Of a DNA stretch of 64,000 nt, positions 9,292 through 55,585 are shown piece by piece. Location: contig NZ_LT629971.1 in the NCBI RefSeq assembly GCF_900108565.1, positions 186,001 through 250,000 of the forward strand, read 5' to 3'. How positions within the stretch are numbered: the first letter of the stretch is position 1; each line of letters starts with the position of its first letter. The notes beneath the pieces are model-generated. The model saw only the letters and a list, made by a program, of their open reading frames with translations, did not search any database and was not told the origin of the DNA. The position numbers and the translations under genes are program-made. Source of the stretch: Mycolicibacterium rutilum (GTDB lineage Bacteria; Actinomycetota; Actinomycetes; Mycobacteriales; Mycobacteriaceae).

Positions 9292-9303
9292 TGGAGATCT
9301 CCA
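9292..9303 (+). promoter_or_regulatory. Palindrome covering the ribosome binding site of the nitrilase cluster
   Basis: A perfect 12-bp palindrome TGGAGATCTCCA ends on the A of the ATG at 9303 and contains the Shine–Dalgarno GGAG. It could be a protein-binding site at the start of the operon, or chance. No clear GlnR-type site was identified in 9157–9291. Confidence 0.3.
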
Positions 9304-9824: not shown

Positions 9825-9837
9825 AAGCCGCTGCGAG

Positions 9838-11969: not shown

Positions 11970-11978
11970 GGAGGTCCG

Positions 11979-13034: not shown

Positions 13035-13038
13035 CACC

Positions 13039-14427
13039 ATGATTCGTGAGTTGTCGATCCTGGCGGGCCGCGCCGCGGACCCGCAGCCGCAGTTTCTCAT
13101 CCACCCCGCCGACAACCATGAGGTCGCGGCGTACCGGCGGTTGCGGCGCGACGAGTTCGTCGTCACCCAGAACCTGTTCGACGGCAGCGACCGCGACGAC
13201 ATCGACGACGACCCGCGCGCCGTCGTCCTGGTCGCCACCGCGGCCGACGGTGCGGTGCTCGGCGGCGTTCGGCTGGCGCCCTGCTGCGCCGACGACATCG
13301 GCTGGTGGGCTGGCAGCCGGTTGGTCGTCGACGCGCGGGCCCGGGCCGCCGGTGTCGGGCCGGCGCTGATCCGCGCGGCCTGCGCGCACATCGAATCCGC
13401 GGGGGTGCTGCGCTTCGAGGCGACCGTGCAGCGACGCTATCGCGACCTGTTCATCGGGCTGGGCTGGGAGGTGCTCGGGGACTGTGCGGTCGCCGGGCAA
13501 CCGCATGTCCGAATGAGGTATCCGCTCAACCAGTTCGAACGCCTGGCGGGCGCGACGAAGGCGTTCCTTGGTGAGACCTTGGCGCCGTTGCGGTCGGTGC
13601 CCGGTGCGCTCGGCCCGGCCGGCTTCGTCGGCGACGACGGGGTGCCGCTGCCGGGCAGCGACATCGTCGCCGCCTGCGACGCGATCATCCCGTCGATGGT
13701 CGAGCGCGACCCGGAGTGGGCGGGCTGGTGCTCGGTGCTGGTCAACGTCAACGACCTGAGCGCGATGGGCGCCGCGCCGATCGGTCTGCTCGACGCGGTC
13801 GGCGCGCCGACGCGGTCTCTGCTGACCCGCATCATGCGCGGCGTCGCCCGCGGATCGCAGGCCTGGCGGGTGCCCGTCCTCGGCGGGCACACCCAGCTCG
13901 GCGTGCCCGCCGCGCTGTCGGTGACGGCGCTGGGCCGCACCGCGAATCCGGTCCCGGCGGGCGGCGGTCGCGTCGGCGACGATGTCCGGTTGACGACGGA
14001 CGTGACCGGTCGCTGGCGCGCGGGTTATCCGGACAGACAATGGGATTCGACCAGCACACGCTCCTCCGACGAGCTGGTGCGGATGGCGGGACTGGTCGCG
14101 TCGATGCAGCCCAGCGCCGCCAAGGACGTCAGCATGGCCGGTGTCGTCGGGACCGCCGGGATGCTCGCCGAGGCCGGCGCGACCGGCGTCGAACTGGACG
14201 TGGCGGCCATCCCGAAACCCGCCGCCGCGGACATGGGCGCGTGGCTGACCTGTTTCCCCGGTTTCGGGATGCTGACCGTCGGCGGCGAGGCGGTGCCCCT
14301 GCCCGACGGCGTGGCCGGCGCGGACTGCGGACGGTTGACCGCGCAGCCCGGGGTGCGGTTGCGGTGGCCGGACGGTGCGGTCACGACCGTTATCGGCGCC
14401 GGTGTGACGGGGTTGGGTTGCGCGTGA
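13039..14427 (+). CDS. GNAT acetyltransferase–AIR synthase-like fusion (MSMEG_0567/Sll0787 family)
   Basis: A 462-residue two-domain protein. Residues 1–160 form a GNAT-like domain (RLVVDARARAAGVGPALIRAA as the acetyl-CoA loop region, then RRYRDLFIGLGW). Residues 175–460 resemble PurM/AIR synthase-related ATP-binding proteins (SDIVAACDAIIPSMV, VLVNVNDLSAMGAAPIGLLDA, VLGGHTQLGVPAALSVTALG, DVSMAGVVGTAGMLAEAGATG). As in MSMEG_0567, the two parts are one polypeptide; in some bacteria they are separate genes. The substrate is unknown, but an ATP-dependent ligation or phosphorylation plus acyl transfer is suggested. ATG 13039 starts 4 bases after the radical SAM stop. Confidence 0.9.
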   Translation: MIRELSILAGRAADPQPQFLIHPADNHEVAAYRRLRRDEFVVTQNLFDGSDRDDIDDDPRAVVLVATAADGAVLGGVRLAPCCADDIGWWAGSRLVVDARARAAGVGPALIRAACAHIESAGVLRFEATVQRRYRDLFIGLGWEVLGDCAVAGQPHVRMRYPLNQFERLAGATKAFLGETLAPLRSVPGALGPAGFVGDDGVPLPGSDIVAACDAIIPSMVERDPEWAGWCSVLVNVNDLSAMGAAPIGLLDAVGAPTRSLLTRIMRGVARGSQAWRVPVLGGHTQLGVPAALSVTALGRTANPVPAGGGRVGDDVRLTTDVTGRWRAGYPDRQWDSTSTRSSDELVRMAGLVASMQPSAAKDVSMAGVVGTAGMLAEAGATGVELDVAAIPKPAAADMGAWLTCFPGFGMLTVGGEAVPLPDGVAGADCGRLTAQPGVRLRWPDGAVTTVIGAGVTGLGCA

Positions 14428-14437
14428 CGGTGTCCGC

Positions 14438-15289
14438 ATGGCGGTGGTGACGATCGGGGCGGTCGCGGCGCACTTCGGCCGCGACGTCGACCGCTGCGTC
14501 ACCAAGGTCGTCGGCATCATCGAGTCGGCGGCCCGAGAAGGTGTGCAGCTGTTGGTGTTTCCCGACGCCTGCCTCGGCGGCTATCTGGGCGACCTGCGCT
14601 CACCGGATCCGGCCGACCCGCCGCCGGCGCTCGACCCCGACGGCCCGGAGATCGAAGCGGTGATCGCCGCAGCGGGTCCGATGACGGTGTGCGTCGGCTA
14701 CGCGGAAGCGACCGTCGGTGGCGGACGGTACAACTCGGCGATCTGCGTGTCCGGCGACGGTGTGCTGGGCACCCATCGCAAGGTGCACCAGCCGGCCGGC
14801 GAATCGTTGGCGTATCTACCCGGTGACGCGTTCACCGCGTTCGACACCCCGGTCGGACGGGTCGGCATGCTGATCGACTACGACAAGACGTTCCCCGAGT
14901 CGGTGCGCGCGCTGACGCTCGACGGGGCGTCGATCATCGCGGCGCTGTCGGCGTGGCCGGCCAGCGTCACCGACCGCGCGTCGCGGCTGCCCGCCGACCG
15001 GCAGTCGCGGCTGTTCGACCTCTACGACTGCGCGCGGGCCGCCGAGAACCAGGTGGTGCTGGTGTCGGCGAACCAGACCGGGGTGATGGGGTCGCTGCAG
15101 TTCCTCGGGCAGGCCAAGGTCGTCGGCCCGGGCGGCGACATCGTGGCCACCACGCGGTCGAAGGGCGGGCTGGCAAAGGTGGCGCTCGACGTTGACGCCG
15201 AGATCGCCCGCGCCAGAAAGGTGTTGAACCACGTGGCCGAGCTGCGGCTGGACGCCTACCGAGGAGCCGACCGGTGCGCGTCGCCCTGA
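14438..15289 (+). CDS. Nitrilase-fold protein lacking catalytic Cys and Glu
   Basis: A 283-residue nitrilase-superfamily protein that aligns well with the nitrilase at 9838–10710 (GGYL, HRKVHQPAGE, YDKTFPES, ALSAWPAS, ENQVVLVSANQTG, LGQAKVV). However, Cys is replaced by Asp147 (LIDYDKTFPE) and Glu by Asp43 (VFPDACLGGYL); only Lys115 of the triad remains. It should therefore not be a conventional nitrilase. It may be a structural or regulatory partner that co-assembles with the active enzyme (nitrilases form helical oligomers), or have another activity. ATG 14438 lies 10 bases after the previous stop, and the 3' end overlaps the glycosyltransferase gene by 16 bases. The frame is intact, so it appears to be under selection. 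Confidence 0.85.
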   Translation: MAVVTIGAVAAHFGRDVDRCVTKVVGIIESAAREGVQLLVFPDACLGGYLGDLRSPDPADPPPALDPDGPEIEAVIAAAGPMTVCVGYAEATVGGGRYNSAICVSGDGVLGTHRKVHQPAGESLAYLPGDAFTAFDTPVGRVGMLIDYDKTFPESVRALTLDGASIIAALSAWPASVTDRASRLPADRQSRLFDLYDCARAAENQVVLVSANQTGVMGSLQFLGQAKVVGPGGDIVATTRSKGGLAKVALDVDAEIARARKVLNHVAELRLDAYRGADRCASP

Positions 15290-25810: not shown

Positions 25811-25877
25811 TGCGCCGAGTTCTACGTCAGGGCTGTGAAATGTCGAGAATCGCTACCCTGGCGTAGAACTCGGCGCA
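25811..25877. repeat. Dispersed hairpin repeat, copy 2
   Basis: A 22-bp stem with a single G·U-type mismatch; arms at 25811–25832 and 25856–25877, containing the family core GAGTTCTAC / GTAGAACTC. It sits between the convergent metQ and Ddn-like genes and leaves only 8 and 3 bases to their stops. This copy has the weakest inner stem. Confidence 0.85.
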
Positions 25878-26340: not shown

Positions 26341-27318
26341 TCACTCGTTGTCGTTGGCCTCGCGCCAGGCCTGCCAGATCTCGGGACGCAGCCGCCCGCG
26401 GTCCGGCACAGACAACCCGGCGCCGCGCGCCCAGGCACGAACGGCGGCGGTGCTGGGCCCGGAATCGTTTGCCGGGATCGCGGCAGTCGGCACGTGTCCG
26501 ATGCGCTGCAGTACGGCCTCTTCAGTGACAGCCCACGCGTGAGCAGCAGCGAGGAATCGATACGTCCATTCCTCGGCCAGCTGCCGGGTCTCGCAGAAGA
26601 CGACCGGCACTGTGGGCCAACGGATCTGCAACTCAGCCAAGTTGTCGGCAGCCAGCGCCGGCCGGATGAAGCTGTTTCGGAAGAGTTGCGAGTACCGGTC
26701 CTCGACCACGACGGCCGCCCGTGGCAGCGACGCCAGATGCCCGACCTGGTATCGCAGCTTGCCGTTGGTCAGGCTCGACGTGAGGTCCGACAACGACTTT
26801 CGTTCCACGCTCGCCACCATCGATCCCTCGACGGCGACCCCGTAGTCGCCACACGGCAACGCCTGTTTGACGAGGTCGACCTGCTGAGTGGCGAACGTGT
26901 ACGCGTAGCGCTCACGCGCGTCGACCAGGATCTGTAAGCGCTCGATGCCCTGTGCGCGCGCGGTCGGGGTGCGCACGTTGGGTCGTGCCTGCTTGCGGGT
27001 GCGCGGCGACTGCCAGAAGACCGTCTCGCGTCCGCGCGCGGTGGTGAACACGATCTGCGATCGGTTCTCCCGCCCGCGCGTCAGGATGACGTCGATCGCG
27101 GCGCCTCGGCGTTGGCACGACTGCAGCGGCAGCCGTTCGACGATCTCGGCGTCGGCGGGCCACTCGTCGATACTCATCGGGTGGCAGTAGAGCGCCTTGA
27201 CCCGCGGCCAGGTGCCCGACGTTCGAAACAGCAGGTCACCGCCGGGCTGCGGAAGCCGCAGCAGGTACGGCAGCCGGGAGTCCTGCTGGGGATTGACTGC
27301 GATCAGCAGCTCTGCCAC
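26341..27318 (-). CDS. ERCC4-type nuclease with Lsr2-like DNA-binding C-terminus
   Basis: A 325-residue protein. Residues 120–250 carry an ERCC4/XPF nuclease core: ILVDARERYAYTF, CGDYGV and the catalytic VERKSLSDL, then AAVVVEDRYSQLF. The last 45 residues (VRAWARGAGLSVPDRGRLRPEIWQAW) look like the AT-rich DNA-binding domain of Lsr2, the mycobacterial xenogeneic silencer. The protein may thus cut or process branched or AT-rich DNA. GTG 27318 (MAELLIAVNPQQDSRLPYLL) was chosen because the conserved start begins there; an ATG 99 bases upstream would overlap the MarR gene. It is divergent from the MarR gene, with 49 bases between. Confidence 0.85.
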   Translation of the reverse strand: MAELLIAVNPQQDSRLPYLLRLPQPGGDLLFRTSGTWPRVKALYCHPMSIDEWPADAEIVERLPLQSCQRRGAAIDVILTRGRENRSQIVFTTARGRETVFWQSPRTRKQARPNVRTPTARAQGIERLQILVDARERYAYTFATQQVDLVKQALPCGDYGVAVEGSMVASVERKSLSDLTSSLTNGKLRYQVGHLASLPRAAVVVEDRYSQLFRNSFIRPALAADNLAELQIRWPTVPVVFCETRQLAEEWTYRFLAAAHAWAVTEEAVLQRIGHVPTAAIPANDSGPSTAAVRAWARGAGLSVPDRGRLRPEIWQAWREANDNE

Positions 27319-27367
27319 GCGTTCAGTGTTGCATCGGGACTCGGATTTGGCCGTCATACTGACCGAC

Positions 27368-27868
27368 GTGGCGGCAAAGCGGGACACATCACCTAAACGG
27401 GGCTGGTTGACAGCCAAACAGCAGCGCGCCTGGCTCGCCTACATGCGGGTGCAGCTGCGGATGAACTACGAGATGAACCGCCAGCTGCAGGCGGACTCCG
27501 GGCTGTCGCTGACCGACTACGACGTGCTGGTGGCGCTCAGCGAGAACAAGCAGGGGATGCGGGTCAGCGACCTGGCCGCGCACATCGGCTGGGAACGCAG
27601 CAGGCTGTCACACCACTTGCGGCGCATGGAGGAACGCGGCCTCACCGCACGGCGTCCCGGGACCGAAGACGCCCGCACCACCACCGTCGTGCTCACCGAC
27701 GGCGGGTGGCAGGCGATCGTCGACGCCGCGCCCGCGCACGTCGATCTGGTGCGCCGCCTGTTCTTCGACCCGCTGCCCGACAACCTGCTCGGTCCGTTCA
27801 CCGCCGCGCTGGAACACATCCACGTCAACCTCAACCACAACAGCTCGCTGCCGCCGTCACCGCGCTGA
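27368..27868 (+). CDS. MarR family transcriptional regulator
   Basis: A 166-residue MarR-type winged-helix repressor. The DNA-binding region is LSLTDYDVLVALSENKQGMRVSDLAAHIGWERSRLSHHLRRMEERGLTARR (about residues 47–97), followed by the wing (TEDARTTTVVLTDGG) and the dimerisation helix. GTG 27368 is used. It is followed by an SDR gene whose promoter region holds a perfect palindrome, TAGGTGA-CATA-TCACCTA; a TCACCTA half site also lies at 27389–27395 near its own start. It therefore most likely controls the SDR gene and itself. Confidence 0.9.
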   Translation: MAAKRDTSPKRGWLTAKQQRAWLAYMRVQLRMNYEMNRQLQADSGLSLTDYDVLVALSENKQGMRVSDLAAHIGWERSRLSHHLRRMEERGLTARRPGTEDARTTTVVLTDGGWQAIVDAAPAHVDLVRRLFFDPLPDNLLGPFTAALEHIHVNLNHNSSLPPSPR

Positions 27869-30888: not shown

Positions 30889-31287
30889 TCAGGGCGTCAC
30901 GAGAATCGCGACGTCGCTGTGCAATTGAGCAAGCCCTTCGTCGAGTGTGGCCAGTCGACCCGTGCGACTCCTCGCGAGCGCCGCCAGATACGCGTCCGTC
31001 ACTTGCCGGTGCCCGATGATCCCGGCGGTGTCGATCTCTGCGTAGGACAACGAGTCCGGCCAAAACTCATGCCGGTCGCTGGCGGCCAAGGTCGTGACGA
31101 CTTCCTGAGCCACAGCCACAGTCTGGCCAGCCCGAATGAGGAACCGGACCAAACTCCCCTCGGTGATCGGGCACGTCGCGATCGCGAGGTCGCTTGCCGC
31201 CAACCACTCCGCTGCCCGGTCGTGGTGGACATGGTCAGCGACGACGAGCGCAATGAGCACGTTGGCGTCGAGCAGTGCAGTGGTCAC
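30889..31287 (-). CDS. vapC: VapC family PIN-domain toxin
   Basis: A 132-residue PIN ribonuclease. The acidic active site is visible as Asp7 (LLDANV), Glu43 (ITEGSLVRF), Asp98 (VTDAYLAALA) and Asp116 (TLDEG). VapC toxins cleave specific tRNAs or rRNA and are held in check by VapB. It overlaps the stop of the upstream vapB gene by 4 bases, the usual arrangement. All catalytic acids are intact, so the toxin looks active. Confidence 0.93.
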   Translation of the reverse strand: MTTALLDANVLIALVVADHVHHDRAAEWLAASDLAIATCPITEGSLVRFLIRAGQTVAVAQEVVTTLAASDRHEFWPDSLSYAEIDTAGIIGHRQVTDAYLAALARSRTGRLATLDEGLAQLHSDVAILVTP

Positions 31288-31508
31288 TCGTCTTCCAAGG
31301 AACGGACGTCCTCGGACGTCACCACGGTTCCCACGCTGATCACGGGCAATCCCGTCCGAGGATGCTTGGCAAGCGATGACACACCACCTGCTGCCAGACC
31401 GCGGCGCATGAGGTCAGCCACGGTCTGACTCAACGACCGGCGGGTGTCGCGCGCGATCGCGAGAGCCTGTTTATGCAGGTCATCCGGCAAGTCGATGGTG
31501 GTACGCAT
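31284..31508 (-). CDS. vapB: VapB family antitoxin (ribbon-helix-helix)
   Basis: A 74-residue antitoxin. The N-terminal ribbon-helix-helix MRTTIDLPDDLHKQALAIAR binds the operator, and the C-terminal tail (from about residue 48) should wrap around the VapC active site. It starts at ATG 31508. Just upstream are three GCATC repeats spaced every 8 bp and one inverted copy, a good candidate for the autoregulatory operator. It overlaps vapC by 4 bases. Confidence 0.93.
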   Translation of the reverse strand: MRTTIDLPDDLHKQALAIARDTRRSLSQTVADLMRRGLAAGGVSSLAKHPRTGLPVISVGTVVTSEDVRSLEDE

Positions 31509-31511
31509 ATC

Positions 31512-31539
31512 GCATCTTAGCATCAGTGCATCAAGATGC
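31512..31539 (-). promoter_or_regulatory. vapBC operator with 8-bp spaced repeats
   Basis: GCATC occurs at 31512–31516, 31520–31524 and 31528–31532, exactly 8 bp apart, with an inverted GATGC at 31535–31539. The array starts 4 bases upstream of the vapB ATG, so binding of VapBC would block transcription start. The remaining bases to 31554 show nothing else. Confidence 0.6.
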
Positions 31540-31554
31540 ATCGATGTAGAGCTG

Positions 31555-32537
31555 TTACGCCGACGGCGCCCACGACTGCCGCAACAGCGCACACGCCTGC
31601 TGAAAACGCGCCCATTCCGCGGCTGTCGGACGCACCGCAAAGTCCGCCAACGCTTCGGAACCCACCTCCATCCCCGGCGCGAGGGGCGCCAGCATCCCGG
31701 CCAACGTGGCAATTTGACCGGCCGGACTGTCTTCATAACTCTCGAAAACCCGCTTGGCGATCCATGATTCGGCAAGGTCCACGCCCCCGACCAGATCGAG
31801 TTCCGGGACGCGCATCGCGCTGCCGCATGCGGCGACGTGGTTCTCGTAGCGATCGTCCCACCGTTCGGTGCGCCAACCCGACCACAAGTCCGGCAGCGCC
31901 TCGAAGAAGCCCATTGTGTCGGCGGTCTGCCAGGCGCCGATCGTCTTGTTGGGTACATCGATGTGCGCACCACCCTCCGGGATCTTCTTCAGCCGGATCC
32001 GGCTGATCCCGGGACCGGGCAACTTGTCCAGCAGCGCCGGGCCATGCCAAGCCTTACTCAGATGCCACCACAACGGCCAGAACCGGAGCCGACCGTCGCT
32101 GTCGACGACAGAGATCAAATGACACAGGTGGTTTCGCCCCCGGGCCAGCCGCAACGTCGGATCCCGGCCCCACTTCGACGGCCACAACTGCGCGCCGACG
32201 TACTTCGCGAGCTCGGAGGTCCGAAATCGATGAGGGCCCCGCCGTCGACCCACGACGCGTCGGTCCATTCGTCCTTGTGACACTTGCGAAGCGAATTCAC
32301 GTATCGCCGCGCGAGATCGGGGCCGCCGATCAACGCGTCGAGCAGCCGACACCCGCCCCAGTGCGAGTAGTACAGCTTCCAATCCCGGTTCTCGACCACG
32401 ACGACGTTAGCTCGGTTTCCCCATATCCTTTCCCGATCGCCCAGACGCGGATGCGTCGCTGCTGCGAGTCTCGGATGGCGCCCCGACAAAATCACCTCAC
32501 CCGACCCGAGCCTGGGGATAACTAGGGCGTTGTCCAC
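31555..32537 (-). pseudogene. Conserved-type hypothetical gene interrupted by a one-base frameshift
   Basis: The 5' part (from GTG 32537) reads VVVVENRDWKLYYSHWGGCRLLDALIGG and on to KDEWTDASWVDGGALIDF, then loses sense. The 3' part continues in another frame with SELAKYVGAQLWPSKWGRD and runs to a stop at 31555. The two overlap between about 32115 and 32382. Adding one base near 32218–32223 (a G in TTCGG(G)ACC on the coding strand) joins them into a single 327-residue protein. I do not recognise the family; the His/Trp-rich YYSHWGG motif and the acidic C-terminus are the main marks. It could be a real mutation or a sequencing error. It is divergent from the Wadjet genes. Confidence 0.7.
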
Positions 32538-32626
32538 AACCTCCGCCCCACCCCGCCCGAAGGTCGGCCGCGTGCCTTATGTTGGACCATCGCGTCGAGA
32601 CAATCGAGGGACATCGAGGACACCGG

Positions 32627-34090
32627 GTGGACGACACCGCCGACAACGGGGGGCTTGCGGCCGCCGACCTGCTCGAACTCAATCGCGACCTGCAGTCCAG
32701 CCCGACGATCCGGCTGCTGGCCACCACCAACCTGAGCTCCTACGCCACGCTGATGGAGCGCCACCTGTCCGACGGGGTGAGCACCGAGACCGAGCTCGTC
32801 GTGCGGCTGGAACGCGACCTCGACGATCTCGGGCATCCCGACGGGCAGTCCGGGCTGGCGCTGATCAAGTCGTGGGCGAGCCAGGGCTGGCTGCATCGCA
32901 TCGTCGATCCGCGCACCGACCAGAACGTCTGCTACCTGACCCAGGAGGCGCGCCGGGCGCTGGACTTCCTGCGTGGGATGCGCCGCCAGGACACCATCGC
33001 GACGGGCGGCTCGATCCAGGGCATCGCGTCGCGGCTCAAGCAGGTCGCGATCCGGGTCGGCAGCGACCCGGCCCGCGTCCGCAAGCACATCGAGGCCGAA
33101 ATCGCCGCTCTGCAAGCCGAACTCGACGAACTCGACGCCGGCGAACGCCCGCAGCCCGACGTCACCGACGCCTACGACGAGGCCCGCGCGATCGCGCTGC
33201 AGATGGAACGGCTGATCACCGACATCGGCCAGTACGGCACGATGATCGAGCAGGCCACCGCCGCGCTCGACGAGCCGATCGACAGCAACGTGGCCTACCG
33301 CGACCGGCAGCGCCAGATGTACGCCGACTACCAGGCGGCATGGGATTCGCAGGGCCGCGACAGCCACCGCGCGTTCCTGCGGATGATCAACGACCCCGAC
33401 CAGCGCGCCGAGTTCGAGGCCGACGTTGCCGCGGTCGCCGAGGCGCTGCCCGCGCTGGATCCGGCGCTGCGCAAGGTGATGGCCGGATTCTTCGAACTCG
33501 TGGGCCACCAGATCGACGAGGTCGAGCGGATCCAGCAGCGGTGCGCGCAGCGGGTCAAGCGGTTCACCGCGTTCGGCACGCTCGAGCAGAGCCGCGGGGT
33601 GGCCCGCCAGCTCAACGAGGCGATCGGCGCGGCCCGCGCCCTGCTGAAGTCATCGCTGACCGATTCGCGGCTCGACATCGACGTCCCGCTGGCCCGGCAC
33701 GCGATCAGTTCCGTTGGGGCGCTGAGCTTCAAGATCGGCGACCTGTCCAACCCGAAGCCGGCCGTCGCCGCCGAGGGTGAGGTCGACCTGACCAGCTTCG
33801 CGGCGCTGACGACGCAGGTGGACGCGCCCGCGATGTCGGAGATGCTCAACGCCGCGGTCAGCTCGGGCCCGGTGTCGCTGCCCGAGGCCGTTGCAATGCT
33901 GGACAATGCATACCTCGGCCACGTCATCGTGCTGTGGTCATGGGCGTTGAAGCAGCCGAATGGGGTTGCGGCCGCGGGTAAGTCGACGACGGTGCGGTTC
34001 CGCTCCCTGGACGGCCCCGACCGCGAGATCGACGTGCCCGACCTGTTGTTCACCGAACCCATCACCACCCTGGCAGGAGTCACGCAGTGA
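32627..34090 (+). CDS. jetA: DUF3375 protein, Wadjet JetA / MksF / EptA-like
   Basis: A 487-residue mostly helical protein of the DUF3375 family, the kleisin-type subunit of Wadjet/MksBEF systems. The N-terminal winged-helix region (LLELNRDLQSSPTIRLLA, then YATLMERHLSDG) and the later long helices with FAALTTQVDAPAMSEMLNAA fit the family. With JetB and JetC it forms an SMC-like complex that extrudes DNA loops and recognises small circular plasmids. GTG 32627 preceded by GAGG was chosen; ATG 32579 is an alternative giving 16 more residues. The stop overlaps the jetB start (GTGA). It is the first gene of the jetABC operon. Confidence 0.9.
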   Translation: MDDTADNGGLAAADLLELNRDLQSSPTIRLLATTNLSSYATLMERHLSDGVSTETELVVRLERDLDDLGHPDGQSGLALIKSWASQGWLHRIVDPRTDQNVCYLTQEARRALDFLRGMRRQDTIATGGSIQGIASRLKQVAIRVGSDPARVRKHIEAEIAALQAELDELDAGERPQPDVTDAYDEARAIALQMERLITDIGQYGTMIEQATAALDEPIDSNVAYRDRQRQMYADYQAAWDSQGRDSHRAFLRMINDPDQRAEFEADVAAVAEALPALDPALRKVMAGFFELVGHQIDEVERIQQRCAQRVKRFTAFGTLEQSRGVARQLNEAIGAARALLKSSLTDSRLDIDVPLARHAISSVGALSFKIGDLSNPKPAVAAEGEVDLTSFAALTTQVDAPAMSEMLNAAVSSGPVSLPEAVAMLDNAYLGHVIVLWSWALKQPNGVAAAGKSTTVRFRSLDGPDREIDVPDLLFTEPITTLAGVTQ

Positions 34091-34770
34091 CCGCTGAGCC
34101 CGAGGTCGACTTCAGCTCGCTGCCGGAAGTCGACCAGAACGCCCGTCCCCCGCACCAGCGCCGCCCGCGCTTCGACGGCGACGTCTCCGAACTGCCCGAC
34201 CGCGCGTGCTGGGCGCTGCAGCACCTGCTGACCCGGCGCTACATCAGCGCCGACGCCGACAGCGACATCTACTCGTGGGTGCTGGAGTACCGCGACCAGC
34301 TCAGCGTGCGGCTCTCCGAACTGGACCTGATCATGCGCATCGTCGACGGGACCGACGTCGCGTTCGTCGAGCAGGCCCGCTACGAATCCGCCAGGGGCAT
34401 CAAGCTTCTGCGCCGCGAGCCGCTGGGCACCTACGACTCGATCCTGGCGCTGCACCTGGCGCAGATGATGCGGGCGTCGGGCGGGCAGGCGGTGCTGATC
34501 AGCCGCGAGGAGATGCACGGCCTGTTCTCCGGGGTGCTCAACGACACCGACCGCGACGCGGTGACCTTCGCCGCGCGCATCGACGGCGCGATCGCCCGGC
34601 TGGCCGGGCTGGAGATCCTGCGCCGCAGCCGCGACGACGAGGACAGCTACACGATCAGCCCGGTGATCACCGCGATCATGACCGCGTCGGTGATCACCGA
34701 ACTCCAGCAGCAATTCGAGCAGCTGCTGAGCGGCGGCGCACCCGCAGAGGAAGAACCCGAAAATGACTGA
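34087..34770 (+). CDS. jetB: DUF4194 protein, Wadjet JetB / MksE / EptB-like
   Basis: A 227-residue DUF4194 protein, the KITE-type winged-helix subunit that bridges kleisin and SMC head in Wadjet/Mks complexes. [34 protein letters not shown] and [22 protein letters not shown] sit in the N-terminal half and [22 protein letters not shown] in the middle. It starts at GTG 34087 within the jetA stop and its end overlaps the jetC start by 8 bases. The position and order jetA–jetB–jetC are those of type I Wadjet. Confidence 0.9.
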
Positions 34771-37700
34771 ACAGTTCCACCTGTCCCGGCTGCAGGTCAT
34801 CAACTGGGGCGTGTTCGACGGGTACCACTCGATTCCGTTCAGCGCGGGCGGCGCGCTGATCGCCGGCGCGTCGGGCAGTGGGAAATCGTCTCTGCTGGAC
34901 GCGATCTCGCTGGGCTTCCTGCCGTTCAACCGGCGCAACTTCAACGCCTCGGGCGACAACACCGCGGCGGGGTCGAGCGCGGGCCGGCGCACCGTCGACA
35001 AGTACGTGCGCGGCGCGTGGGGCCAGCGCAGCGACGGCGGCACCAGCCGGGTTATGTACCTGCGCGGCGAGGGCACCGCGTGGTCGGCGGTCGCGGTGAC
35101 CTACACCGGGGACTCCGGGCGCACCGTCACGGGCCTGGTGCTCAAGTGGCTGACCGGAGAGTCGCGCAACGACTCGTCGAGCCGGTTCGTCATCGGCGAC
35201 GGCGACCTCGACATCGAGGACGTCTGCAACCGCTGGGCGGCAGGGCGTTTCGATACCGGCGTGTTCAAGGACGGCGGCTGGCGGTTCACCACGAAGGTGG
35301 AGTCGCAGTACCTGGCGCAGCTGTACGCGACGATCGGCATCCGCGCCTCCGACGCCGCGCAGCAGCTGCTCGGCAAGGCGAAGTCGCTGAAAAGCGTTGG
35401 CGGGCTGGAGCAGTTCGTCCGCGACTTCATGCTCGACGAACCGGAGAGCCTGGCCCGGCTGCCGGAGGCGCTCAAGCAGATCGACCCACTGGTGGAGGCC
35501 CGCGAGCTGTTGGCCGTCGCGCAACGCAAGCGCAAGATCCTCGGCGACATCGACAAGATCCAGCAGCGCTACGCCTCGGAGTCGACGGATCTGGGCATCA
35601 TCGACCTGGTCGACCTGCCGATGGTGCGCGCCTACACCGACCATGTGCGGCTCGCGCAGTGCCCGGGGCAGATCGCGCAGCTCGACACCACGATCGAGCA
35701 ACTCGACAACGAGTACGAGGACGTCACCCGGTCACTGAATCTGGCCAAGGCCGAGGCGGATTCGCTCAACGCGCAGATCAGCGGGTCGAGTGCGAGCATC
35801 GGGCCGCTGCAGTCGCAGGTGACGGCGGCCGAGACCGAGGCCGAGCAGGTGTCGCGGCGGCGCGGCGCCTGCGAGGACATGCTGACCGCGCAGGGCCTCG
35901 ACGTCCCGGAGACCGCCGAGGACTTCTGGAACTTGCGCGAGGAGCTGCTCGCCGAGGCCACCGAGCTGCTGGCCAAGGTGGAACGCAACCGCGAGGCCTC
36001 CACCGACGCCGAGTACGCGCAGAAGGCGGCGCGCATCACCCGCGACGACGCGGCCAAGGAGCTCAAGCGCGTCGAGCACGTCGGATCGGCGCTGCCGGAG
36101 TTCGCGCTGGTGATGCGCGAGCAGATCAGCGCCGCGGTCGGGGTGGACCCGAGCGAGCTGCCGTACATCGCCGAGCTTTTGGATCTGCGGCCCGACCAGA
36201 CCCGGTGGCGCACCGCGGTGGAGAAGGTGCTGCGCGGCGCCGGGTTGCGGCTGCTGGTGCCGGATCAGCACTGGGATGCGGTGCTGCGGTTCGTCAACGA
36301 GACGAATATGCGGGGCCGGCTGCAGCTGCACCACGTGCGGGCCCGCTTCCTCGGCGCCGAGCCGGTCGATCCGGAGCCGAACACCCTGGCGGGCAAGCTG
36401 TTCGCGGTCGACCCGGCGCACCCGTGCGCGGCCGAGGCCGTCGACGTGGTGACGTCGGCGGGCGATCACGTGTGCGTCGACACCCCCGACGTGTTCGCGC
36501 GGTTCCGTCGCGCGGTCACCGACACCGGCCTGTACAAGGACAGCGACCGGTTGGCGGTCAAGGACGACCGTCGTCCGCTCAAGCAGTCCGACTACCTGTA
36601 CCAGGGCGACGTGTCGGCGAAGATCAATGCGCTGACGATGGATCTGGCCGCCGCCGAGGAGGCCTACCAGAAGGCCCGCCGCGTCGCCGACGACATCGCC
36701 GCGCAGCGCCAGCAGTGGCGGGACCGGGCCGCGGCGTGCAAGGCGATCTGCGAGCAGTTCCCGCAGTGGAGCCAGATCGACATCGAGACCGCCGACGGGC
36801 ACGCCGACCGGCTGCGCGAGCAGTACGAGCTGCTGATGGCCGACCATCCCGACATCGAGGCGCTCAATGCGCGCGCCGACGAATGCTGGTCGCAGATCCA
36901 GACATTGATGACCCGGCGCGGCGCGATCCAGACGCGTCGCGACGACCTCGACGCGCGTCGCACCGCGGTGCTAGAGCTCTCGGAGCGGCTGTCGCCGGCG
37001 TTCGTGTCCGAGCCGCTGACCGAGTTGTTGACGCGGTATGCCGCGCAGTTGCCGGTGTCGCTCGAGTTGCTCGACCCCGAGCCGCACCGGGATGCGTTGT
37101 TCACCGCGATCAAGAAGGAGCGCGAACAGTTGCGGGAGAGCCGCCGTCGCTCCTACGACGAGCTGGCGCGCATCCTCAACACGTTCGACACCGCGTTCCC
37201 CGACGCGATCCCGAACGACAGCGACAATTTCGACGAGCGGGTGCACGACTACGTCGCGCTGTGCCGGCACATCGACGAACGCGAGCTGCCCGAAGCCTAC
37301 GAGCGGATGATGCGGCTGGTGACCGAGCAGGCGCCCGACGCGATCCTGACGCTGCACCGGGTCGCCGAGCAGGAGGCGCGGCGCATCGCCGAGCAGATCG
37401 ACCGGGTCAACACCGGTCTGGGCGCGGTCGAGTTCAACCGCGGCACCCGGCTGACGCTGCGGGCCACGCCGCGGTCGCTGACCGCGGTGTCGGAGCTGAC
37501 CGAGATCGTGCGGGCGATCTCGCGGCGCATCGCCGAGGTGGGGCTGGGCGACAAGCAGGCGATCCTCGACCAGTACGCCGACATCCTCCGGCTGCGCAAC
37601 CGGCTGGCGTCGACGGCGCCGGAGGACAAGGCGTGGACGCGCGACGCGCTGGATGTGCGCAACCGGTTCACGTTCGACTGCGCGGAATGGGATGTGTCAT

Positions 37701-38119
37701 CCGACGAGCTGATCCGCACGCACTCGAATGCCGGCGACAACTCCGGTGGTGAGCAGGAGAAGCTGATGGCGTTCTGCCTCGCGGGCGCGCTGAGCTTCAA
37801 CCTGGCCAGCCCCGAAAGTTCGGACAACCGACCGGTTTTCGCCCAGCTCATGCTCGACGAGGCGTTCTCCAAGTCCGACCCGCAGTTCGCGCAGCAGGCC
37901 CTGCAGGCGTTCCGCAAGTTCGGGTTCCAGTTGGTGATCGTGGCGACCGTGCAGAACGCGACGACGATCCAGCCCTACATCGACAGCGTGGTGATGGTGT
38001 CGAAGACGGAGCCGACGGGCCGCAACGCGCGCCCGGTCGCGACCGTCGCCACGCGGACGATCTCGGAGTTCTCCGCGCTGCGCCGGGAGATGCGGGAGAA
38101 GGTGCCGGCCGGCGTCTAG
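34763..38119 (+). CDS. jetC: SMC-like ATPase, Wadjet JetC / MksB / EptC-like
   Basis: A 1,118-residue SMC-like protein. Walker A is GASGSGKSS (residues 35–43); a long coiled coil occupies about residues 290–850 with a hinge-like part in between. The C-terminal head has the signature [12 protein letters not shown] and Walker [12 protein letters not shown] followed by the D-loop. In type I Wadjet, ATP-driven loop extrusion by this subunit detects circular DNA that JetD then cuts; in M. smegmatis the homologue EptC limits plasmid transformation. All ATPase motifs look intact. The expected jetD gene is not found downstream; a hairpin repeat and a helicase gene follow. Confidence 0.92.
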
Positions 38120-38136
38120 CGTTCGCGCGCCGCTTT

Positions 38137-38200
38137 GCGCCGAGTTCTACGCCAGGGCTGCGATCCGCGACTGATCGCGACCCTCATGTAGAACTCGGCG
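38137..38200. repeat. Dispersed hairpin repeat, copy 3
   Basis: Left arm from 38137 (core GAGTTCTACGCCAGGG to 38157), inner GCGATC/GATCGC-like pair, right arm CCCTCATGTAGAACTC and beyond (38181–38200). It lies between the co-directional jetC and helicase genes, 17 bases after the jetC stop, at the point where jetD would be expected to start. Confidence 0.82.
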
Positions 38201-38218
38201 ACCGGTAACGTGCCAAGC

Positions 38219-40567
38219 GTGAGCGAGTTGATCCTCACCGACGAGTTCCGGGAGGCGCTGGCGCTGCTGGCCGGCGGTCGCCACCTGTTCCTGACCGGTA
38301 AGGCGGGCACCGGCAAGTCGACGCTGATCCGGCGGTTCATGGCCGAGACCGAGCGCAACGTGGTGGTGGTTGCGCCGACGGGCATCGCGGCGCTCAACGT
38401 CGACGGCTACACCATCCACCGGCTGTTCGGGTTCCGCACCACGACCACCCTGCACGACGTCACCGGCGGTGAGTACCGACCGGGCCGGTTCGCCAAGACG
38501 CTGGCGTCGCTGCAGACGCTGATCATCGACGAGGCGTCGATGATGCGCGCCGACGTGTTCGACATGGTGGCCACCGCACTCGAGCGGTTCGGCCCGCAGC
38601 CGGGTGAGCCGTTCGGCGGGGTGCAGATCGTGCTCGTCGGCGACCTCTACCAGTTGCCTCCGGTGGTCGCCGACGGCGAAGAGGGTTACTTCACGAGCGT
38701 CTACGACACGCCGTACTTCTTCTCCGCCCGCAAGTTCTCCCGCGACGACTTCCCGACGATCTCGCTGACGACGGTGTTCCGGCAACTCGGTGATGACCGG
38801 ATGACCGCGATCCTCAACGAGATTCGCGAGGGTGTGCTGCTCGGCCACGCGCAGGAGCAGCTCAACGCCCGCGCCGACAAAGATTTCGTGCCGCCCGACG
38901 ACGAGTTCTGGCTGACGCTGGCGCCGACGAACCGGCTGGTGACCGCGCGCAACCGCCAGCAGCTCGAGCGGCTCGACGGCGACGAGATGCTGCACCGCGC
39001 CCGCGAGTCCGGCGACCTGTCGCTGTTCGACAAGCCGATCGAGGATGAGCTGCGTTTCAAGGTCGGCGCGCAGGTGATGATGCTCAACAACGACCAGGGC
39101 GACCGCTGGGTGAACGGCTCGATCGGCCGCGTCATCGGCGTCGGCTACGACCGCTACGGCGTCGTGGTGGAGATCGAGTTCGCCGACGGGACGTGCTCGG
39201 AGGTCACGCCGTTCACGTGGGAGGCGACGCGGCCGGTCATCGACGGCGGCTCGCTGCGGCGTGAGGTCATCGGGACGTTCACGCAGTTGCCGTTCAAGCT
39301 GGCGTGGGCAATCACGATCCACAAGAGCCAGGGGCAGACGCTGGAGCGTGTCGTCGTCGACCTGACCGGCGGCATGTTCTCGACGGGCCAGCTGTACGTC
39401 GCGTTGAGCCGCTGCACATCGCTGGCGGGGCTGGTGCTCAAACGCCCTGTGCTGCCGAAGGATCTGAAGACCGACCGGCGGATCGCGCGGTTCCTGCGCA
39501 GGTCGGTCGGCGGTGCGACGGCCCGCCGGTACTGCGCGATCGGCATGCTGACCGTCGGCGACGAGGGCCGGATGTCGCGGCCGCGGCCGGTGGAGCTGGC
39601 GGTGGTGTTCGACGACGGCACCGCGGTGTCAACATTGATCAACCCGCAGCGTGATCTGGCCGATGCGCGAAATGCGTACGGCATCACCGTGTCCGATGTG
39701 CTGCTGGCGCCGACGCTGCGCGAGGCGTGGGCGGTGATCGCGCCGATGCTGGCGGGATGCACCCCGGTCGGCCCCGGGGTGGACGAGACGCTGGGGTTGA
39801 TCGACTTTGAGCTCAAACGCCTGGGCCATGTGGCGGTCATGCCGCTCGGCGTCGAGATGCGGCGCGTGCAGGTGTTCGGGCGCACAGCGCTGGAGCGGGC
39901 GCAGTCGGTTCTGGGGGCGTTGGCGTCGGCGACGGTCGAGGAGGGGTCGTCGGCGTTCGAGGAACCCGAACCGGCGGAGTCGGTTTCGGGTCTGCTGGTG
40001 ACCCGCGATCCGGCCGTGCCGACGCCGACGGCCGACCATCTGCCGGGGCTGTCGGCGTTGCTGCGGATCAGCCGCGACGTGGGAGCGGTGCTGCTGGGGG
40101 CGACGGTGCACCGCGACCTCGATTCGTCGTGGGATGCGGCGGCGCGGTCGGCGGTGGCCGATCAGCTGCGCGCGGCGGCGAGCCGGGCCCTGTTGCCGGA
40201 CGAGGTGGTGGCGCGGCTGCACAAGGCGTCGGAGCTGCTCGGTGTCGACGTGATGGCTGATATCGCGACGGTGGTCCGCCATGACATCAACGAGGCTCTG
40301 GTGCCCGGCGCGCGGATCTGTTTCACCGGAACGGCTTTGGACCCGGCGGGCCGGGTGGTGGAGCGCGACGAGATCGAGCGGATGGCCGAGTCGGCAGGCC
40401 TCAAGCCGGTGCGGTCGGTGACCAAGACACGGTGCGAGGTGCTGGTGACGGCGGAGGCCGGTACGCAGTCGGGCAAGGCACGCAAAGCGGTCGAGTACGG
40501 CAAGGCGGTGTTCACCGCCGACGAGTTCTTCGCCTGGCTGTCGGAACGTGTCGGACCGCGGACGTAG
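38219..40567 (+). CDS. Pif1-like helicase with degenerate exonuclease region and C-terminal BRCT domain
   Basis: A 782-residue protein. Residues 1–430 form a PIF1/RecD-type superfamily 1 helicase: Walker A FLTGKAGTGKST, VVAPTGIAALNV, Walker B TLIIDEASMM, and motif VI VALSRC with IHKSQGQTLE. About residues 455–570 look like a DnaQ-type exonuclease that has lost the DxE metal site (PVELAVVFDDG in its place). Residues 695–780 fit a BRCT domain (ARICFTGTALD, then RMAESAGLKP). The family unwinds DNA 5' to 3' and may act at repair or replication forks. GTG 38219 was used (38210 possible). It begins 18 bases after the hairpin repeat. Confidence 0.88.
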   Translation: MSELILTDEFREALALLAGGRHLFLTGKAGTGKSTLIRRFMAETERNVVVVAPTGIAALNVDGYTIHRLFGFRTTTTLHDVTGGEYRPGRFAKTLASLQTLIIDEASMMRADVFDMVATALERFGPQPGEPFGGVQIVLVGDLYQLPPVVADGEEGYFTSVYDTPYFFSARKFSRDDFPTISLTTVFRQLGDDRMTAILNEIREGVLLGHAQEQLNARADKDFVPPDDEFWLTLAPTNRLVTARNRQQLERLDGDEMLHRARESGDLSLFDKPIEDELRFKVGAQVMMLNNDQGDRWVNGSIGRVIGVGYDRYGVVVEIEFADGTCSEVTPFTWEATRPVIDGGSLRREVIGTFTQLPFKLAWAITIHKSQGQTLERVVVDLTGGMFSTGQLYVALSRCTSLAGLVLKRPVLPKDLKTDRRIARFLRRSVGGATARRYCAIGMLTVGDEGRMSRPRPVELAVVFDDGTAVSTLINPQRDLADARNAYGITVSDVLLAPTLREAWAVIAPMLAGCTPVGPGVDETLGLIDFELKRLGHVAVMPLGVEMRRVQVFGRTALERAQSVLGALASATVEEGSSAFEEPEPAESVSGLLVTRDPAVPTPTADHLPGLSALLRISRDVGAVLLGATVHRDLDSSWDAAARSAVADQLRAAASRALLPDEVVARLHKASELLGVDVMADIATVVRHDINEALVPGARICFTGTALDPAGRVVERDEIERMAESAGLKPVRSVTKTRCEVLVTAEAGTQSGKARKAVEYGKAVFTADEFFAWLSERVGPRT

Positions 40568-42063: not shown

Positions 42064-45000
42064 CTAACCCGAGGCGAGTGCGAGCACTTCCTCCGGCGAC
42101 AGCGGGCTCGGCGGATGGTGGGTCAGACACCAGGGCGCGACGATGCGGTGGAACGCCTGCCCTTCGGTGGCGACGTAGAAGTTGCCGGAGCGCAGCCGGC
42201 TGATGTCGGGCACCAGTCCGCCTTTCGCCCTGGCCATTTCCTTGGCCGACTCGATCTGGGCGGGTGCGTTGAGCAGCCCGTAGAACTGGGTCGTCGCGTT
42301 GCCCGGGATCTGGTTGTGCAGCGACTTGGGTGCCTGCGTCGCGAACACCAGCCCGAGCCCGTACTTGCGGGCCTGCGACGCCAGCGCCAGGGTGCTGCGG
42401 GTGCATGCGGTGTAGCCCTTCGACGGCGCCAGCGTCTGCGCCTCGTCCATCACGAGCAGACCGCCCAGCGGCCGGTCCCCTGCCGGATTGCGTTTGATCC
42501 ACGCGAACAACGCCATCTGCAGCTGATTCACGAACCCTTGCCGCTGCTCGTCGGACGGCAGCCCGATCATGCTGATCACCGACACCCGCGCGCGGTAACC
42601 CTGCGACGGCGTCAGCAGCACGGCCGGGTCGACGGGCGTTCCCGCGCCGCCGAACAGCGGGTCGTTGACCATCGACGCCCGCAGGTTCTGCCCCAGATCG
42701 GACGCGATCTTGCGCGCGTCGGCCAGGCCGCTGGCGTCGTCGGGCAGGTCGTTGAGCACGCCGATGAATCCGGCCAGCGTCGGATCGGGCTGTCTTCCAT
42801 AGTGCTGCAACGCTTCCCGCAGCACGGCGCGGGCGCGGTGCGCCTTCTGGGTCTGTCCGGTGATCGACGCGCGGGGTTCGAGCGCGGCGGCCGCCGACTC
42901 GACCGCGTCGTTGAACTCGTCAGCGTCGTCGAGCACGCTGGCGAAGTCCGGCAGCGGCTGGAACGCCAACGGCCGTCCGTTGTTTCGCCGCGGCGTCCAC
43001 ACGACGACCTCGGTGTTGTCGAGGTAGGCGGTGGCGCGGTCGTCGTCGGAGCGTCGCCACCCGTTCGGCGGTTCGGGCCATGCGGTGCCGAGCCGGGCGA
43101 GGTCGTTGTTGGGGTCCAGCACGATCGAGGACACCCCGCGCAGCGCGCACTCCTCGACCAGACGCCGGATCAGCACCGTCTTACCCGACCCGGATCCGGC
43201 GAACACCGCGACGTGCTTGCGCAGCGTCGACAGCTCGACCGAGACGGTCGTGTCGCTGCGCAGATCGGTGCCCAGCGGTAACTCGTTGTCGGGCACGAAC
43301 TCTGGCTTGTCGTCGATGACGACGGGTTCCTCCCGCTCCCGCGGTGGCGGTGGCGGCGGCGCGACGCGCCCGTCGTCGCCGAGCACTTCTTGCAGCAGCG
43401 CCAAGCCGTGGGCGGGGCGACGGGCCCGCAGCCAGCCCGGCAGATCGGCGTCGTCTTCGGCGATGAGGTCGCGCAGCGCGATCATCGTGCGCAGGTCGTC
43501 GTCGGTCACCGCGAGCGTGCGGCCACCCGCGCGGTGGAACTCGTCGATCAGCGCGGCGGTCTTCGGCCCGGTCGGCCACGGGGTGTTGCGCAGCAGGAAG
43601 AGCCGGCGGCGGTTCGACCCCTCCCCCATTCCCGTTGCGCTCCAAGCTTTCTTGATCCGGTTCTGGGCGGCCAGGGCGTTGGTGGCGGCGATCGCGCGAA
43701 ACGCCCAGTGCCGCTCGTCCTCGGTGGTGGGGTCGAGGCTCTGGCGCAGTCGCGCGTGCAGCAGGACGTGGCTGCCCGGCGGCGGATCACAGGCATAGGA
43801 CTGGAAGTCCTCGTCGCGTTCGGCGATCCAGGCGGTGAGCGCGGCGGACAGCAGTTCGGGCATCGCGGTGTCCTCACCCTCGGCGTCGAGGGCGGCCGCG
43901 GGCACCGCGCGCTGCCGGTAGTCGGCGAAACGGCGCTCGAGCGCCGACGAAGTCGGGACGTCCACGACCGTCGTCCCGCCGCGGTGCACGGAATCGTCGC
44001 TCAAGTGGTCGAGTTCAACCACCTCACCGTCGCGCAGGCACTGGCGCACATGGGCGTCGGCGATCTTGAGCAAGTTGCGCGGGGTGCTGTCGGTCGCGTC
44101 GGCGAACGCCTCCGCCCGGATCGGCCAACTCGGGTACGGCGGGAGGAAGCCGACCTCGGCGTATCCGGCGGCGAAGCGGCGCTCGAGGATCGCGCGGCCG
44201 ATGTCGGCGGTGGGCAGACCTTTGAGCGGCTCGGGCTCGCGGAACCGGTCGGCGACGCTGGCGGTCGCGTCGCGGCGGATGCGCTCCCACACGCCGGGCA
44301 GGCAGGCGACGACACCGACCGTGCGGCGCATCGTCTGGCGCACCGCCATCAGCCCGTCGGCGACCTGGTGCAGCACGTCGTCGCTGTCGTCGCTCGTGTC
44401 GTCGGTCCGTGAGACCGATTGCGCGAGAAGCGTATCGATCTGATCGAGCGCCAACACGGCGGGCCCGGCGAGCGCGACCAGCCGGGAGATGTCGCGCACG
44501 CACTCCTGCGCGGACTCGGGCGAGGCGCGCAGGCCCCAGGTGCTGCGGTCGTCGCCGCCGAACTCGTCGCTGGCCTGCAGCCAGGCCTCGCCGACGTCGT
44601 GGGCGGTCAGGTCGGAGGCGGCGAGCAACACCAGCGCGCGCAGGGTCTGGTGACAGTCGCGGACCGGGTCGCGGTGGCTCTTGGCGAGCGCGTTGACGAA
44701 CTTGGTGAGTGTCTCGGGTTCGAGGTCGTCGTCGCCGATGATCGCGCGCCGCTCGGCGCGGCTGACGTGCGCGATCGACGACAGCTCCCACAGCAGGTCC
44801 TTGAGTTGCGTCTCGCGGGCGGCGCCGGGGCGGCCGAGGCTTTCCAGTACACCGCTGCGCACCGACTCCCAGAAGCTGGCCGCGTCGAGCAGTTCGACGA
44901 CGAAGAAGAAGCCGCCGTCGGCCTGCACGCGTTCCCGGACCTGGCCGAGCAGGTGGGTCTTGCCGGAGCCGGCCGAGCCGCGCACGACGACGCCCAGCGG

Positions 45001-45171
45001 CGCGGAGACCGGGTCCCTGGCGGCGTCGCCGAAGGCGTCCATCACATCGTCGACGGCGTACTCGTTGAGCCCGGGGACGTGGGTCCTGGCCTGCGGGCGC
45101 CACAGGTCGTCGGTGGTCGGGGCCCAGGTGAGCCGAAGCGACGCGAGCGCTTCCCGTTCCGCGTCGCGCAT
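42064..45171 (-). CDS. Large double ATPase: N-terminal AAA/STAND-like plus C-terminal HerA/FtsK-like
   Basis: A 1,035-residue protein with two P-loop domains. The first has Walker A GSAGSGKT (65–72) and Walker B VLALDQID (239–246), with a sensor-like region CLPGVWERI near residue 290, as in Orc/STAND-type ATPases. A variable middle part follows (about 400–600, with LFLLRNTPWPTGPKTAALIDEF). The second has Walker A AGSGSGKT (658–665), Walker B LLVMDEAQTL and ATQAPKSLHNQI, as in HerA/DUF87 and VirB4-like DNA translocases. No nuclease motif was recognised. It overlaps the wHTH-like gene upstream by ATGA, so the two form an operon. A DNA-processing or defence role is suspected. Confidence 0.8.
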   Translation of the reverse strand: MRDAEREALASLRLTWAPTTDDLWRPQARTHVPGLNEYAVDDVMDAFGDAARDPVSAPLGVVVRGSAGSGKTHLLGQVRERVQADGGFFFVVELLDAASFWESVRSGVLESLGRPGAARETQLKDLLWELSSIAHVSRAERRAIIGDDDLEPETLTKFVNALAKSHRDPVRDCHQTLRALVLLAASDLTAHDVGEAWLQASDEFGGDDRSTWGLRASPESAQECVRDISRLVALAGPAVLALDQIDTLLAQSVSRTDDTSDDSDDVLHQVADGLMAVRQTMRRTVGVVACLPGVWERIRRDATASVADRFREPEPLKGLPTADIGRAILERRFAAGYAEVGFLPPYPSWPIRAEAFADATDSTPRNLLKIADAHVRQCLRDGEVVELDHLSDDSVHRGGTTVVDVPTSSALERRFADYRQRAVPAAALDAEGEDTAMPELLSAALTAWIAERDEDFQSYACDPPPGSHVLLHARLRQSLDPTTEDERHWAFRAIAATNALAAQNRIKKAWSATGMGEGSNRRRLFLLRNTPWPTGPKTAALIDEFHRAGGRTLAVTDDDLRTMIALRDLIAEDDADLPGWLRARRPAHGLALLQEVLGDDGRVAPPPPPPREREEPVVIDDKPEFVPDNELPLGTDLRSDTTVSVELSTLRKHVAVFAGSGSGKTVLIRRLVEECALRGVSSIVLDPNNDLARLGTAWPEPPNGWRRSDDDRATAYLDNTEVVVWTPRRNNGRPLAFQPLPDFASVLDDADEFNDAVESAAAALEPRASITGQTQKAHRARAVLREALQHYGRQPDPTLAGFIGVLNDLPDDASGLADARKIASDLGQNLRASMVNDPLFGGAGTPVDPAVLLTPSQGYRARVSVISMIGLPSDEQRQGFVNQLQMALFAWIKRNPAGDRPLGGLLVMDEAQTLAPSKGYTACTRSTLALASQARKYGLGLVFATQAPKSLHNQIPGNATTQFYGLLNAPAQIESAKEMARAKGGLVPDISRLRSGNFYVATEGQAFHRIVAPWCLTHHPPSPLSPEEVLALASG

Positions 45172-45776
45172 CAGTGCTCGATCGCGATGAGGTGTTTGGG
45201 CTGACCGCCGATGACGACGGCGGCGGAGCGGTCGGCGTCGGTCAGCACTTTCTGGTTCTCTTCGGGGATCAGGCTGATGCCGGGTTGGCGGTACAGCGTG
45301 CGCAGGGCGGCGTCGACATCGTCGCGGCCGGCGCCGTTGAGCGCGGCGCGCAGCTTCGTCAGGCCGACCCAGCCGCCGGGGCGCGGTGCGAGGTCGGCGT
45401 ATGCAGCGCGGATGCGGTCCTCGAGCGAGGGCGGTGGTGGCGATCCGAACACGTCAGCCAGGCTCAGGTCGGCGGCATCGAGGTAGCGGCCCAGCGCGCC
45501 GAGCACGGTGTACAGCGCCTTGCCGGGGCCGGCGGCGCGGGGTGGCGGGCCGGCGGAGACCAGGTCGCGGCAGGTGCGCCAGCCCTTGTCGGTGAGTTCG
45601 TGGACGAGGCGGTTGCCCTCGCGGGTCGACTCGATGAGGCCGAGGTTGTTGAGCTTGTCGCGGCCGGGCTTGTCGAGCTTGGGCCCGAGCGCGACCAGGT
45701 CGGGGTTGGGCACGGGTCGGGACTGGGCCATGAGCACGAGAAGGACGGCTCGTTCGGTTCCGGTCAGGTCAGCCAC
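45171..45776 (-). CDS. Winged-helix-like protein paired with the HerA-like ATPase
   Basis: A 201-residue protein starting at GTG 45776 (MADLTGTERAVLLVLMAQSR). The first 70 residues (LVALGPKLDKPGRDKLNNLGLIES, then LVHELTDKGW) look like a winged-helix domain. The second half (RIRAAYADLAPRPGGWVGLTKLRAALNG and DDVDAALRTLYRQPGISLIPEENQ) resembles another small helical/wHTH unit common in HerA- or DNA-associated partners. No catalytic motif is visible. The stop overlaps the ATPase start, a strong sign of joint function. The frame is open further upstream over the YdcF-like gene, which I regard as spurious. Confidence 0.75.
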   Translation of the reverse strand: MADLTGTERAVLLVLMAQSRPVPNPDLVALGPKLDKPGRDKLNNLGLIESTREGNRLVHELTDKGWRTCRDLVSAGPPPRAAGPGKALYTVLGALGRYLDAADLSLADVFGSPPPPSLEDRIRAAYADLAPRPGGWVGLTKLRAALNGAGRDDVDAALRTLYRQPGISLIPEENQKVLTDADRSAAVVIGGQPKHLIAIEH

Positions 45777-45915
45777 CCTTGCCAACTTAACGACTCCGGC
45801 GCGACGCGGTCGTCGGGGTGCGCCTGGGAATCGACGGTCGCGTAACGATCGGCGCAGTGGCCTCGATAACACCGGCAGCAACATCAACCTCATGAACCTC
45901 AGTCGGGGAGGTCGC

Positions 45916-55524: not shown

Positions 55525-55585
55525 GCGAGTTCTACGCCAGGGTCGTGATTGCCCCAAGATCGCGACCCTCACGTAGAACTCGGCG
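55525..55585. repeat. Dispersed hairpin repeat, copy 4
   Basis: Core AGTTCTACGCCAGGG on the left (to about 55542) and CCCTCACGTAGAACTCGG on the right (from 55566). The left arm carries a 2-base insertion compared with the other copies. It lies between convergent prfC and serine hydrolase genes, 17 and 6 bases from their stops. Confidence 0.82.

Follow-up and report, generated by a model that had tools for sequence, protein, structure and literature searches.

A locus of Mycolicibacterium rutilum carries genes for the first three parts of a type I Wadjet, JetABCD, a four-part system that serves to cut circular DNA. The gene for the fourth part, the JetD nuclease, is missing from the operon, which raises the question of what the remaining genes might do, and whether their arrangement is peculiar to this genome. 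The window referred to below is the whole stretch of 64,000 nucleotides that was analysed, and coordinates without a locus number are positions within it.

Two jet operons in one genome

The window operon lies on the plus strand and begins with jetA (mksF; 32627-34090), which encodes a kleisin of the DUF3375 family (Pfam DUF3375, E 3.5e-103; PADLOC JetA1, E 4.5e-259). Its start is likely the GTG at 32627, and an ATG at 32579 is possible; the PADLOC JetA1 match begins at residue 22 of the longer reading frame. The next gene, jetB (mksE; 34087-34770), encodes a KITE protein (DUF4194, E 1.2e-36; PADLOC JetB1, E 1.9e-117), and jetC (mksB; 34763-38119) encodes an SMC ATPase of 1118 residues with AAA_29 and SbcC Walker B matches (PADLOC JetC1, E 0, 2104 bits). 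No NCBIfam model names jetA, jetB or jetC of the window. The JetC protein aligns over its full length with solved Wadjet JetC chains (8as8, 8bfn, 8q72; E 3.6e-62), and its Walker A (GASGSGKS), signature (NSGGEQEK) and Walker B (LMLDEAF) motifs are intact. Since jetA overlaps jetB by 4 bp and jetB overlaps jetC by 8 bp, translational coupling is plausible, in keeping with an earlier note on this DNA that had described three intact, coupled genes. Taken as a whole, JetA, JetB and JetC of type I Wadjet are encoded together in one operon, and the JetD nuclease (TOPRIM, PF09983) is not. The locus also has the make-up of an MksBEF-type, JetD-less SMC complex, namely SMC ATPase, kleisin and KITE genes without MksG/JetD, and intact ATPase motifs. 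Cleavage by JetD is not possible at this locus alone.

A scan of the whole 5.99 Mb genome with the JetD_C profile (PF09983, the former DUF2220) gave no match in the 64-kb window and a single match elsewhere, at 5,516,733-5,517,263, about 0.69 Mb from the window operon round the circle if the contig is circular. The same note had found no JetD in the window and had proposed such a genome-wide search, and its reading of the window stands. The sole JetD is the last gene of a complete second jetABCD operon at 5.52 Mb on the minus strand of the genome (locus L002), in which jetA occupies 13836-15284, jetB 13261-13839, jetC 9870-13271 and jetD about 8707-9879, all on that strand. This JetD matches solved MksG/JetD and retains its TOPRIM motifs (ENE, YWGDID, LEQER), and the JetC encoded beside it is 28% identical to that of the window. 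The genome therefore holds two JetABC sets, one with a nuclease and one without.

The insertion site and its neighbours

The place where jetD would be expected is taken, as the earlier note had also seen, by a hairpin and then a helicase gene. The hairpin has 28-nt arms (38138-38200, or 38136-38200 when counted as a repeat copy; no strand assigned) and belongs to a dispersed palindromic repeat family. The genome has 29 BLAST matches to it, spread over about 20 sites, and many fall within the first 250 kb of the contig. One of these is at 25813-25877; in this copy and the one at 38136-38200 the arms contain GAGTTCTAC and GTAGAACTC. The hairpin is thus one copy of a widespread repeat and was rejected as a jet-specific element. 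Another motif pair of the repeat is found at 55527-55581.

The helicase gene (38210-40567, plus strand) encodes a Pif1/RecD2-like protein with a C-terminal BRCT-like region. It had been suggested as a partner of the complex, and this suggestion fails: 38 of the 119 genomes surveyed in the genus have the gene and 18 of those 38 have no window-type JetABC, and in one genome (G095) the run metNIQ - vapC - Pif1 - DUF2293 is found without jetABC, so the helicase was rejected as a fourth subunit. Pif1-like genes flank JetABC in the window and at locus L009, and a JetABCD operon at L061. The gene may instead mark an insertion hotspot.

Further detail on the site comes from the same genome, G095 (locus L220), which aligns to window positions 30965-31546 and, after 136 bp of unrelated sequence, resumes at 38218-38359, leaving 0.4 kb between vapBC and the Pif1 gene. 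This clean empty site identifies jetABC as part of a presence/absence block at the window site (31547-38217; no strand assigned), which holds the hairpin and a 275-residue reading frame divergent from jetA (31555-32382, minus strand) as well as jetABC, and which is missing in G095. The 275-residue frame has no family match and is not conserved with jetABC. Clustering of the reading frames that surround some 50 loci left jetA, jetB and jetC as the sole families present throughout, and other families recurred only among close relatives sharing the same site; no conserved partner gene was found beside the JetABC of this clade in Mycobacterium.

At four loci (L014, L016, L017 and L019) 2-3 kb of unrelated chromosomal genes split jetA from jetBC or jetB from jetC, and the separated parts are intact. 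The L016 and L017 inserts have a patatin-like gene in common, and the inserted genes differ between most of the loci, for which reason the insert was rejected as an effector. Elsewhere in the window, a minus-strand gene at 42064-45171 encodes a 1035-residue protein with an N-terminal AAA domain and a C-terminal HerA/DUF87 domain, weakly matching MADS8; a frame upstream of it (45171-45860, minus strand) has no family match, and the two are a possible defence pair. An ERCC4-type nuclease domain fused to an Lsr2-like DNA-binding domain is encoded at 26341-27417 (minus strand), and relatives of this protein are found near Pif1 or within a split jet operon in several genomes.

Distribution, descent and selection

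Window-type JetC was found in 51 of the 119 genomes of the genus. By identity to the window protein, 39 of the 51 carriers fall at 81-94%, seven at 59-60%, three at 56% and one at 50%, and one has a split copy (G026). Only the 50% carrier (G078, locus L057) has an adjacent JetD, leaving 50 of 119 genomes with JetD-less window-type JetABC. Any JetD at all is encoded in 22 of the 119 (PF09983), and its presence anywhere in the genome is unrelated to the operon, at 9 of 50 JetD-less carriers versus 12 of 68 non-carriers (Fisher p = 1); the other 41 carriers have no PF09983 match in the whole genome. With named genomes added to the genus set (L087-L166, nearly all mycobacteria or MAGs), an adjacent JetD was seen at none of 100 distinct loci with JetC identity of at least 80% (downstream sequence being shorter than 4 kb at five of them), at 2 of 25 loci at 45-80%, at 1 of 15 at 30-45% and at 13 of 16 below 30%. 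A JetD missed by the profile through divergence was rejected as an explanation: in JetD-negative loci the JetD HMM gave no match down to E 10, tblastn for JetD gave nothing at 0.1, and no conserved reading frame occupies the slot in Mycobacterium. Three-gene jetABC without jetD is the normal, conserved layout of this clade. The earlier note had treated it as an anomaly, to be refuted if the layout proved normal and a jetD were present elsewhere in the genome, and both are the case.

The same kind of JetABC extends to other genera. It is present in all 14 genomes of genus g5, which is Tsukamurella-like by synteny with an annotated T. tyrosinosolvens record (L217), and in 37 of 56 genomes of genus g4, and no JetD adjoins it at any g4 or g5 locus examined. 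In a few mycobacteria the operon is broken, with interrupted copies in G026 and G039 and remnants in G023 and G102, which indicates that JetABC is dispensable there. No close homologue was found in either the mycobacterial plasmid or the mycobacterial phage collection, and carriage on such elements was rejected. DUF3375 and DUF4194 are among the domains reported to separate rapid- from slow-growing mycobacteria (PMC10551460).

Trees of JetC and JetD were built from actinobacterial sequences only and were midpoint-rooted, with long branches. The window type falls in a large JetC clade together with g4, g5 and several other genera, and JetD occurs in this wider clade only in three scattered lineages, at L057/L067, L198, L207 and L241 (from the genus of L207). 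Specifically, the JetD-positive L057, L198 and L207 are nested, with starred support, within JetD-negative clades, and the JetDs of these three group in a single clade (100/97) mirroring the corresponding JetC clade (100/100). Because the two trees mirror each other, vertical inheritance with at least four losses fits better than repeated regain. The ancestor probably had JetD, which Mycobacteriales then lost four times or more, with some doubt left by the midpoint rooting and long branches. The rare operons of the wider clade that keep JetD (L057:8347-9657, L198, L207) encode a fast-evolving form of it with intact TOPRIM motifs.

The genes that stayed behind are well preserved. Estimates of dN/dS (omega) are 0.05-0.14 for jetC and 0.09-0.21 for jetA and jetB, and omega is low also in L016 and L017, where jetA is about 3 kb from jetBC. 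Every wider-clade row of the JetC alignment retains intact Walker A, signature and Walker B motifs. Judged by these ratios and alignments, jetA, jetB and jetC are under purifying selection and not decaying.

Candidate roles and known systems

The reading that best accommodates these results, to which we give a probability of roughly three in four, is that the window jetABC encodes a nuclease-free, Wadjet-derived (MksBEF-like) SMC loop extruder operating without JetD, most likely as an accessory, non-essential condensin. Starting from a JetABCD ancestor, several branches of Mycobacteriales would each have lost the nuclease gene on their own, with selection keeping the three-gene form. On grounds of homology, dimers of JetC, together with the kleisin JetA and the KITE protein JetB, are expected to load on DNA and to hydrolyse ATP in extruding loops. 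If JetD is absent, a complex stalled on a small circle could not go on to cut it, and its output would then have to be DNA compaction or occupancy itself. The likeliest role would be that of an accessory, non-essential condensin resembling MksBEF of Pseudomonas aeruginosa, with non-cleaving interference with plasmid or phage circles as second choice. The chromosome is slightly favoured over small circles as the substrate since known Wadjets need their nuclease for plasmid effects (PMC10123090) and since carriage in g5 is universal. A plain MksBEF-like complex had been one of three options offered by the earlier note, and is the best supported of them.

The second choice is possible, though we would not bet on it. 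It holds that JetABC defends without cutting, compacting or sequestering the small circular plasmids or phage genomes that it entraps and so keeping them from being replicated, transcribed or segregated. Patchy presence (50 of 119 genomes), varying location, decayed copies and a clean empty site, with vapBC on one side and the Pif1 gene on the other, fit an accessory or defence gene as well as they fit a condensin, and the neighbours include toxin-antitoxin, nucleotidyltransferase/HTH and HerA-like genes. Moreover, EptC and MksB act against plasmid maintenance in relatives (PMC10123090, PMC7083940). However, the nuclease is the executing part in known Wadjets, deletion of mksG having the same plasmid effect as deletion of mksB or mksF (PMC10123090), and carriage by all 14 g5 genomes together with conserved synteny in some clades looks vertical and unlike defence.

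It is less likely still that a different DNA-acting enzyme, whose gene lies elsewhere in the genome, serves JetABC as a substitute effector. Mycobacterium shows no conserved neighbour, and in most genomes Pif1 and JetABC are not linked; the idea of a different nuclease encoded nearby thus finds no footing within the genus. Effector replacement may nevertheless occur in the clade, for a sister branch carries a conserved gene in the JetD slot. In 20 of 20 loci from five related genera (g118, g121, g123, g126 and g128), a gene for an AlkZ-like DNA glycosylase (PF06224, E 6e-78; solved AlkZ 5uuj, E 2e-5) lies directly 3' of JetD-less jetC. In one of these loci it spans L208:8391-9473, and the others are L209, L211, L212, L214-L216 and L228-L240. 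In all 20 the gene has the orientation of jetC, about 16 bp at most separate its plausible start from the stop of jetC, the two genes often overlap, and the encoded proteins conserve a Q-[SA]-Q motif; QxQ is the catalytic motif of AlkZ-type enzymes (PMC9040887). No such gene adjoins jetC in the g5, g4 and Mycobacterium loci examined. Synteny around the AlkZ loci is partly conserved, so common descent explains part of the linkage. The tight spacing across five genera suggests co-function, and the arrangement points to an effector swap, from JetD to an AlkZ-like protein, in this branch.

It is tempting to generalize, and we do so tentatively, with the odds leaning against the whole: JetABC may be a modular sensor that loops DNA and changes effectors, JetD having disappeared on four or more occasions in Mycobacteriales, with nuclease-free complexes fixed by selection and an AlkZ-like replacement acquired in five genera. 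If true, JetABC-AlkZ would add a new base-excision system, one guided by an SMC complex and serving against circular foreign DNA or in crosslink repair. For an effector swap, the operon of JetABC and the glycosylase offers a concrete candidate.

Use of the second operon's JetD in trans, another option of the earlier note, is very improbable: that JetD is intact at 5.52 Mb, but the two JetCs have diverged to 28% identity, and a partnership of this kind was rejected as a general rule because 41 of 50 carriers have no JetD and carriage of the one is not associated with carriage of the other. Equally hard to credit is a decaying, functionless remnant, for which the few broken copies speak and against which stand intact operons in nearly all of about 100 distinct loci, an omega of 0.05-0.2 and invariant motifs.

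A nuclease-free form of the complex would carry wider meaning. With the nuclease apparently dropped repeatedly, the motor kept under selection and every g5 genome a carrier, the JetABC motor should have a useful activity of its own, and the JetD-less clade offers natural material on how SMC motors move between defence and chromosome care. No description of a JetD-less Wadjet lineage in Mycobacteriales was found in the literature searched, in which older work is incompletely covered.

Among known systems, type I Wadjet (JetABCD, also MksBEFG or EptABCD) is the closest: gene order, protein families and ATPase motifs are the same for JetA, JetB and JetC, and JetC aligns with Wadjet JetC (8as8, 8q72, 8dk2) over its whole length. 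The window operon differs in lacking JetD, which most carrier species lack in the whole genome. For the nuclease-free reading, a review serves as precedent (PMC10586767). MksBEF of P. aeruginosa belongs to a different lineage, whereas the probable JetD losses described here are in Mycobacteriales and repeated. EptABCD of M. smegmatis and the second operon of this genome are of the same complex type in the same host genus, and differ by having JetD. The 59-60% JetC subclade adjoins three genes that, as named from their protein sequences, are htdX, fabG4 and fadA2. In M. smegmatis, fabG4 is MSMEG_0372 and fadA2 is MSMEG_0373 (PMC10699116), and a second MukB-like SMC is MSMEG_0370 (PMC6135046). 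From this synteny and the gene numbers, rather than from its sequence, MSMEG_0370 is a probable orthologue of the window-clade JetC. A strain without Smc, EptC and MSMEG_0370 is viable and its nucleoid is still condensed (PMC6135046). M. smegmatis, a laboratory species, thus probably carries both forms of the complex, with and without JetD, which makes the question directly testable.
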